NCBI RefSeq assembly: GCF_000337775.1
Contig: NZ_AOLQ01000012.1
Coordinates: 1-64,000 of the forward strand
Length of the DNA: 64,000 bases
Source of the DNA: Haloarcula vallismortis ATCC 29715
GTDB taxonomy: Archaea > Halobacteriota > Halobacteria > Halobacteriales > Haloarculaceae
Reading direction: 5' to 3'
In this document: positions 44,417 through 57,565 of the stretch, piece after piece
Layout: every line of letters begins with the position of its first letter
Position numbering within the stretch: position 1 is the stretch's first letter
Position numbers and translations under genes: made by a program
Notes under the pieces: generated by a model
Told to the model about the DNA's origin: nothing
The model's database searches: none
Seen by the model: only the letters and a program-made list of their open reading frames with translations

Positions 44417-44474
44417 TTGCCTTCCATCTATGAAGGGATACGTTCGCGCTCCGTTGGTTGATGCCGCGGAACGA

Positions 44475-44598
44475 GCGGCGGTGGTGAGCAAATCCGACGG
44501 ATTTGCGAGGCACGCCGCGCGCGAACGAAGTGAGCGTGCGGCGGTGGCGAGCGATTCCAACAGAATCGCGAGCCTCGTCGCGAGGAAGCGAAGCAACA
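44475..44598 (+). repeat. Short palindromic elements and tRNA-start-like repeats before tRNA-Gly
   Basis: GCGGCGGTGG, the first ten bases of the tRNA, also occurs near 44476 and 44539. After each copy comes GTGA or GCGA and a small hairpin: GCAAATCC-GAC-GGATTTGC (44488-44506) and GCGATTC-CAACA-GAATCGC (44551-44569), then GCGAG. The array ends at the true tRNA. It looks like repeated partial duplication of the tRNA 5' end with inserted palindromes. Confidence 0.6.
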
Positions 44599-44599
44599 A

Positions 44600-44670
44600 G
44601 CGGCGGTGGTCTAGTGGTAGGACCTGAGCCTTCCAAGCTCATGGCCCGGGTTCAAATCCCGGTCGCCGCA
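44600..44670 (+). tRNA. tRNA-Gly (anticodon TCC)
   Basis: The 71-base cloverleaf has acceptor GCGGCGG pairing with TCGCCGC and discriminator A. The D-arm is GGTCTAGTGGTAGGACC-like, and the anticodon stem TGAGC/GCTCA has loop CTTCCAA (TCC). The T-arm is CCGGG-TTCAAAT-CCCGG. CCA is not encoded. A TTTGCTGC/GCAGCAAA inverted repeat just downstream (44672-44701) may be a terminator. Confidence 0.95.
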
Positions 44671-44783
44671 TTTTGCTGCGAGTCTATCCACGAGCAGCAA
44701 ATGCTTCATTGAGGGATTTGAACTGCGGAAATCCGAGCGATAGCGAGGATTTGCAGTCGAGTTCAAATCCCGGTCGCCGCATT
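44650..44783 (+). repeat. 23-base direct repeat of the tRNA-Gly 3' end, att-like
   Basis: GTTCAAATCCCGGTCGCCGC plus ATT occurs at 44650-44672 (T-loop to end of the tRNA) and identically at 44761-44783. Such tRNA-end repeats are left by integrases that use the tRNA gene as attB. No integrase lies between the copies; the 88 bases hold only two hairpins, including AAATCC...GGATTT. This suggests a scar or a very reduced remnant. Confidence 0.65.
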
Positions 44784-57281: not shown

Positions 57282-57439
57282 GCGGGCGTGGCGGGAGTGA
57301 GCGAAACCGGGGGATTCGAACCGGACCGAGACTCGCTCTGCTCGTCTCGTAGGGTTCGAATCTCCGGACCGTTCTCACGCCTCACTGTCGCTCGCCGGAA
57401 AACGGGCGTGGCGGGAGTGAGCAAACGCGGAGCGTTTGC
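57282..57439. repeat. tRNA-Arg-end repeats and a palindromic element
   Basis: CGGGCGTGGCGGGA, the complement of the tRNA-Arg 3' end, occurs near 57283 and 57403 and again in the tRNA at 57492. The first two copies continue identically (GTGAGC) and lie 120 bases apart. After the second copy comes the hairpin GCAAACGC-GGA-GCGTTTGC (57421-57439), flanked by GTGA and GAG. It has the same form as the elements beside tRNA-Gly. Two T-loop-like segments (GGATTCGAACC and GGGTTCGAATC) lie between the copies. Confidence 0.6.
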
Positions 57440-57491
57440 GAGCTACGCCACGGCCGCAAGTGTGTTTCGAGCGGACACGAGAACCACGAAG

Positions 57492-57565
57492 CGGGCGTGG
57501 CGGGATTCGAACCCGCGTTCTAGGGGTTAGGAACCCCTCGCCCTGGTCCACTAGGCCACACGCCC
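57492..57565 (-). tRNA. tRNA-Arg (anticodon CCT)
   Basis: The 74-base cloverleaf has acceptor GGGCGTG pairing with CACGCCC and discriminator G. The anticodon stem AGGGG/CCCCT has loop TTCCTAA (CCT). The T-arm is GCGGG-TTCGAAT-CCCGC. No intron is seen and CCA is not encoded. Confidence 0.95.

Follow-up and report, generated by a model that had tools for sequence, protein, structure and literature searches.

The repeated 3' end of the tRNA-Gly(TCC) gene of Haloarcula vallismortis is interpreted here as the distal edge of a unit that belongs to a class-wide family of gene-less palindromic cassettes, whose units most likely arise by site-specific recombination; this reading as a whole has a probability of about 0.5. 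Behind haloarchaeal tRNA genes, such units occur either alone or in arrays. Each consists of the tRNA 3' block, a hairpin (H1), an inverted T-arm (I), a polar hairpin cassette (H2), and a direct copy of the tRNA 3' block (D'), in that order. Their anatomy, association with tRNAs, average edges, sharing of cassettes, polarity and spacer geometry, as well as one probable loss, were obtained by computation. The repeat at tRNA-Gly is not unique, nor does it represent the scar of a single lost element; 261 of the 293 genomes of the order contain the pattern, which touches essential genes.

In the window, which is the whole stretch of 64,000 nucleotides analyzed, tRNA-Gly(TCC) occupies positions 44600-44670 of the plus strand, as do all the parts of its unit. 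The perfect 23-nt copy of the tRNA 3' end reported in the initial annotation was confirmed by exact-match search: the 23-mer at 44650-44672 recurs at 44761-44783, 111 nt away from start to start, with no third occurrence on the plus strand of the window and with identity stopping at both sides. A chance repeat was rejected, since by simple arithmetic a 23-nt match so close has a negligible expectation (about 111 x 4^-23). The first copy of the 21-nt block, from the T-loop to the last tRNA base, is at 44650-44670, and D' is the same block followed by TT. The 90 nt between the tRNA and this copy had been described as almost nothing, which proved incorrect, as the interval contains H1 directly 3' of the tRNA (44671-44701), the inverted T-arm GGGATTTGAACT (44713-44724), and H2 (44725-44759). 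The inverted T-arm pairs with AGTTCAAATCCC (44760-44771) in the T-arm of D', around the inner stem AAATCC/GGATTT of H2. Compared with shuffled sequences, the RNA fold of the whole interval had a z of -4.5 and that of the palindrome alone a z of -6.3. No integrase is encoded in these 90 nt.

The region upstream of the same tRNA, at 44470-44599, contains repeats of the tRNA-Gly 5' end with hairpins, an arrangement that insertion at the T-loop does not explain. Two 5'-end copies (44470-44485 and 44533-44548, plus strand) lie in these repeats, which are 62-63 nt long. Direct 5'-end copies were found upstream in 22 of 133 entries, against 1.47 expected; 18 of the 22 were at Gly(TCC), with the H. 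vallismortis locus counted twice. They came from 16 genomes of the genus, H. vallismortis included, and from one distant genus (locus L134).

The second tRNA in the window, tRNA-Arg(CCT) (57491-57565, minus strand), has a downstream unit of the same kind on that strand, with a T-arm palindrome forming the I-H2-D' core at 57313-57362. Two copies of the 3' end of this tRNA, at 57403-57418 and 57283-57298, have the shorter ACTCCC type of edge. Neither this unit nor the 5'-end copies upstream of tRNA-Gly were mentioned in the initial annotation. The assembly contains 67 tRNAs, 25 of them in one cluster on contig C4. When the last 16 nt of each tRNA were searched for within 300 nt on either side (≤2 mismatches), 11 of the 42 non-cluster tRNAs had a copy of their own tail downstream and none had one upstream, with 0.15 expected from the ends of other tRNAs; the remaining 31 had no tail copy within 300 nt downstream. 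Likewise, none of the 25 clustered tRNAs had a 3' copy in the 300 nt downstream. The pattern GATTYGAA-N26-56-TTCRAATC had four sites in the genome, each directly downstream of a tRNA by coordinates, and none when run as a backward control. The cluster itself (C4:254165-257733) packs its 25 genes into about 3.6 kb and resembles a viral or plasmid tRNA array. It had partial matches in 141 phage records, covering 3% of the query among those listed.

The tRNA-Gly locus was recovered in 30 of the 32 genomes of the genus Haloarcula, H. vallismortis included; the two genomes with no match are 58% and 71% complete. At least one extra copy of the 21-nt 3' block (≤3 mismatches) was present at 15 of the 30 loci, mostly spaced by 106-114 nt, and by 130 nt in G013 and G021. 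Two consecutive copies were found in G001, G002, G012, and G021. Genome G007 had no unit at tRNA-Gly, and its downstream sequence begins with the sequence that trails the last copy in its relatives. In a tree of the 14 genomes that had both marker genes in short loci (G003, with 186 nt before its tRNA, was absent), G007 was the sister of G001 with support of 0.99. Because G001 carries two units, G007 is most simply explained as having lost its units cleanly at the repeat, a secondary loss, and is unlikely to represent an ancestral empty site. In five loci of the genus with two measurable copies, the near copy was closer in sequence to the tRNA than the far copy (mismatches near/far: G001 0/1, G012 1/3, G004 0/7, G021 0/1, G002 0/4), a pattern that gene conversion could also give. 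Contrary to an order in which the near copy is the freshest, L362 has three identical copies, and alleles alternate at Ser(TGA) of genome G069.

These comparisons bear on the origin proposed in the initial annotation. Its view of the repeat as att-like was correct as to the edges, which run from the T-loop to the tRNA 3' end as expected of a tRNA att block, but a scar or remnant of one large element does not fit a copy present at half of the genus loci and the occurrence of related units at numerous tRNAs throughout the order. The same arrangement in distant relatives had been named there as what would show a stable structure unrelated to integration. The arrangement is indeed found in relatives, yet it stays compatible with recombination because the number of units varies between relatives and cassettes are common to several tRNAs.

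Larger integrated DNA, which the initial annotation had suggested looking for at this locus in other haloarchaea, was present in two members of the genus. In G019, a PF00589 integrase begins 112 nt downstream of tRNA-Gly; another contig holds about 54 nt of the 3' part of tRNA-Gly followed by a copy 130 nt on; the integrase and this tRNA part probably belong to one element. In G003, tRNA-Gly and a 48-nt tRNA part, itself followed by a unit, are about 1.24 kb apart; the intervening DNA is low in GC and yielded no integrase. Larger DNA can therefore integrate at the tRNA so that the small unit ends up on its distal side. PF00589 matches occurred in all 15 genomes examined, which were picked for high or zero palindrome counts and included H. 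vallismortis. Their numbers did not follow the palindrome counts, and integrase load was rejected as a driver: G069, with 22 palindromes, has 5 matches, while G004 has no palindromes and 17. G013 is another genus member without the strict palindrome, with 16 PF00589 matches.

Across the order, the stricter pattern GGATTYGAA-N28-56-TTCRAATCC was found in 80 of 87 genera, and its backward control gave no match in any of the 293 genomes. In a draw of 120 genomes from the phylum, the palindrome was present in 17 of the 19 belonging to the same order and in 1 of the 101 others. Twenty-nine of 30 sampled order-wide loci were 35-330 nt downstream of a tRNA, with many isotypes represented; the other, L125, was taken as a chance match. 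Similarly, 26 of 30 palindrome loci in G285 and G069 were downstream of a tRNA. Two of the four with no tRNA detected were L388, which is a three-copy array, and L390, which has no tail copy and reads as a chance match in coding sequence. At the other two, L396 (G285) and L414 (G069), T-arm units lie just past a truncated 13-nt tRNA end, and no full tRNA was found in the 18-19 kb around each. A PF00589 match about 0.5 kb from L414 points to elements that use short att sites at the 3' end.

Pattern scans of viral and genome contigs returned at least 120 and at least 119 stretches, respectively, 80 being listed from each. Among those listed, all matches in named haloarchaea with a tRNA within 400 nt were downstream of that tRNA. 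Bacterial matches near a tRNA, among the matches listed, were mostly inside the tRNA, mainly tRNA-Ser, and hence trivial, and many bacterial loci had no tRNA within 400 nt. A Sphingobium match 225 nt behind tRNA-Thr (L320) was set aside since it has no tail copy. Downstream of tRNA-Pro(CGG) in Butyricicoccus pullicaecorum (L294), there are two tandem units of 142 nt, each with a hairpin that looks by eye like a terminator, a perfect inverted T-arm and a copy of the tRNA tail. Similar T-arm units with tail copies lie downstream of tRNA-Leu(TAA) in a Candidatus Woesearchaeota genome of the DPANN (L334).

Copies were collected for 132 tRNAs, bacterial and viral ones included, and 92 were kept that were haloarchaeal with the first copy within 200 nt. 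After duplicates and unusable rows were dropped, 90 copies were available for the analysis of edges, 77 units for the inverted T-arm, 62 cassettes for polarity, and 67 and 77 units for the wobble test. A wider locus set was used to compare I with D' (87 loci) and for covariation and spacer geometry. Many of the loci are related, so the shuffle tests overstate independence.

In the 90 copies, agreement with the copy's own tRNA was 0.87-1.00 at all positions of the block, T-loop G through final tRNA base. The 14 positions preceding the block and the 15 following it were near the background of other tRNAs, apart from small excesses at a few of them, such as three positions before (0.51 vs. 0.33) and four after (0.48 vs. 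0.32). The search required ≤5 mismatches in the first 20 nt, so that identity within the block is conditioned by it, whereas the absence of identity beyond the block is not. These common edges are an average, and a second, rarer class of copies that starts later, at ACTCCC, was missed by the search. Simple tandem duplication followed by decay was rejected, because the sequences after the tRNA and after the copy are near background on average in the 90 copies. At L117, L129, L138, and L421, H1 is also duplicated, as plain tandem duplication would give.

The inverted T-arm was likewise specific to its tRNA (n = 77). Its core matched the tRNA of its own locus at 7.73 positions, compared with 7.33 for reassigned tRNAs, and the T-stem flank at 2.88 compared with 2.37; none of 5,000 shuffles reached either value. 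On the cassette side the match was, if anything, below reassignment (1.61 vs. 1.82), which indicates that the inverted copy, too, ends at the T-loop start. At the T-loop purine, the inverted T-arm agreed with the tRNA and not with D' in all four loci where the two differ. This result is weak because stem and acceptor positions with a tRNA-D' difference were mixed: I matched D' at 12, the tRNA at 7, and neither at 9.

The cassettes are polar. Fifty-four of 62 were purine-rich on the sense strand of the tRNA, 5 were pyrimidine-rich and 3 were tied, and a purine minihairpin motif occurred 32 times in the sense orientation and never in the antisense orientation. An inner stem (≥4 bp, ≤8 nt from both cores) was present in 67 of 89 representatives. 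In 48 of the 67, the distance between core and stem was n nt on the left and n+1 nt on the right, 5/6 being the commonest combination, compared with 9-10% in shuffles; after strict clustering, the n/n+1 spacing was found in 25 of 33. Covariation was assessed with 88 representatives instead of 89, as the order of clustering differed. In a family of 27, paired positions covaried, with 3.11 of 4 complementary compared with 1.78 in shuffles. Among mismatches, G.A (88) was far above C.T (22). The search patterns allow 26-56 nt between the cores, the unit in the window is about 110 nt long, and no gene cassette was found.

Cassettes are shared between different tRNAs of one genome. In G069, a 2.1-Mb genome in which a further search counted 25 palindromes, Arg(CCG) and Lys(TTT) carry the same 28-nt cassette without a difference. 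This cassette is also present at Leu(TAG), Arg(TCT), and Leu(TAA), within two mismatches of the Leu(TAG) copy. Pro(TGG) and Ser(TGA) likewise have one identical cassette of 40 nt. What follows the T-loop core is the exact or nearly exact tail of the unit's own tRNA for Ser, Arg(CCG), Lys, and Leu(TAA); at Pro and Leu(TAG) the tail has decayed in part, and at Arg(TCT) it is a divergent allele. The Ser(TGA) array has five units, in the order C-B-A-B-A outward from the tRNA, and its tail alleles alternate.

Average edges shared at the T-loop, tRNA-specific sequence outside, exchangeable sequence inside and a polar hairpin fit site-specific insertion at the T-loop. Crossover would occur at the T-loop start (G|TTCRAAT), for which the proposed receptor in the window is the G|TTC at 44650/44651. 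An incoming cassette would bring a fresh sequence from the T-loop to the 3' end, keeping the tRNA whole, and the old 3' end would be displaced downstream as D'. H2 cassettes would move between different tRNAs, recombination between copies would delete units, and arrays may grow adjacent to the tRNA. A tyrosine recombinase would perform the insertion, perhaps with a folded single strand as its substrate, and host XerA would be our guess for the enzyme. A tie to such a recombinase is opposed by the finding that palindrome-rich genomes can be poor in PF00589. Neither an excised circle nor an insertion at the level of a population was observed. In full, the proposal is of an integron-like but gene-less system with tRNA T-loops as receptors, in which a tyrosine recombinase of the host adds, exchanges and deletes cassettes, replacing tRNA 3' ends, and T-arm palindromes with a conserved unpaired spacer serve as folded single-strand sites; taken as a whole it is tentative and rather unlikely.

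The main rival to T-loop insertion is template switching during replication, in which the nascent strand would fold back at hairpins of highly transcribed tRNA genes and copy tRNA ends inverted and then direct, with no dedicated enzyme, the same process keeping the hairpin arms matched. It is a possible but rather unlikely explanation. The downstream order of direct copy, hairpin, inverted copy, hairpin and direct copy is what it would give, and the direct copies and hairpins upstream of tRNA-Gly, as well as the similar units at tRNA-Pro in Butyricicoccus and in the Woesearchaeon, are in its favor. One paper reports that template switching creates and maintains hairpins, with reverse-complement repeats and matched stems like those of the units (PMC8794818), and another reports quasi-palindrome mutations in yeast DNA under high transcription (PMC3820800). 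However, template switching does not predict average edges that are sharp and common to many tRNA types, the fixed polarity or the n/n+1 spacers; nor does it predict H2 cassettes that are not derived from tRNA and turn up behind several tRNAs within a genome. Its edges would be set by local microhomology and differ between loci; the 90 copies share common edges on average, but late-starting copies exist that this search missed. Inverted copies of the 5' end upstream of tRNAs, moreover, were not above expectation (3 vs. 1.60).

It is doubtful that the units are instead an RNA element under selection in the tRNA trailer, acting in termination, 3' processing or decoy folding, that was duplicated and kept for the folding of the sense RNA. 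The polarity, the covariation of the stems and the terminator-like H1 of L294 are consistent with such an element, and the sense strand does fold better than the antisense strand (z of -2.62 compared with -2.16, with the lower value on the sense strand in 60 of 92). RNA-selected pairing usually leaves an excess of G.U over A.C, and the lack of one counts against it (51 G.T vs. 40 A.C in H2, not significant; 29 vs. 26 in H1). The tRNA tail downstream has no obvious RNA role, and 31 tRNAs of H. vallismortis have no copy within 300 nt downstream, as is also true of tRNA-Gly in G007. Very unlikely is the erosion of ordinary integrase-borne elements, independently at many tRNAs. Although the edges are att-like and larger DNA is integrated at the same tRNA in G003 and G019, erosion would not yield one and the same architecture, about 110 nt long, in the majority of the order's genera. 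In addition, the larger insertions lie upstream of the units, bounded by the tRNA parts of roughly 48 and 54 nt; similarly, a truncated 13-nt tRNA end immediately precedes two units in G069 and G285.

Short tRNA repeats in haloarchaea are not by themselves evidence of lost proviruses. If the recombination reading is true, the units would be a route for the exchange of tRNA 3' ends and would provide a model testable in Haloferax volcanii. Searches of open-licence papers returned no description of the unit architecture. The nearest report concerns Haloferax gibbonsii LR2-5, which has 11 partial tRNAs, several directly adjacent to a full copy; the available sections mention these remnants without an architecture, a cassette or a class-wide pattern (PMC7921747). 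As described in two papers, tRNA-targeted elements regenerate the tRNA and displace a 3' fragment (PMC4383910, PMC8371274), and the units are like them in their identity block from the T-loop to the 3' end, the restored tRNA and the displaced copy. They differ in being about 110 nt long with no internal integrase, in carrying an inverted T-arm and a hairpin cassette, and in forming tandem arrays at many tRNAs per genome. Unlike MITEs, they are confined to the 3' side of tRNAs rather than dispersed in the genome. CRISPR repeat-spacer arrays, and casposon insertions at tRNA ends, also consist of short tandem repeats split by inserts and anchored at one end, but the inserts of the units are related palindromes common to several loci, not unique and diverse spacers.

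The closest likeness is to integron arrays. The attC sites of integrons are described in two papers as imperfect palindromes whose sequence is little conserved but which share a conserved unpaired spacer and a strand polarity (PMC8946536, PMC3518468). The cassettes described here are likewise attC-like palindromes with an unpaired spacer and strand polarity, and the units further resemble integron arrays in their fixed receptor, their tandem arrangement and the G|TT edge. In contrast, their cores are GTTCRAA/TTYGAAC, with C at position 4, instead of the GTTRRRY/RYYYAAC of integrons, they contain no genes, their receptor is a tRNA T-loop, and their arrays are spread over many tRNAs. Because of these differences in cores, genes and receptor, the units are not classed as integrons. 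The best reading of the comparison is that they may function like an integron array without being a member of the integrons, and, if they do arise by recombination, they would represent a second kind of folded-site cassette system outside the classical integrons.
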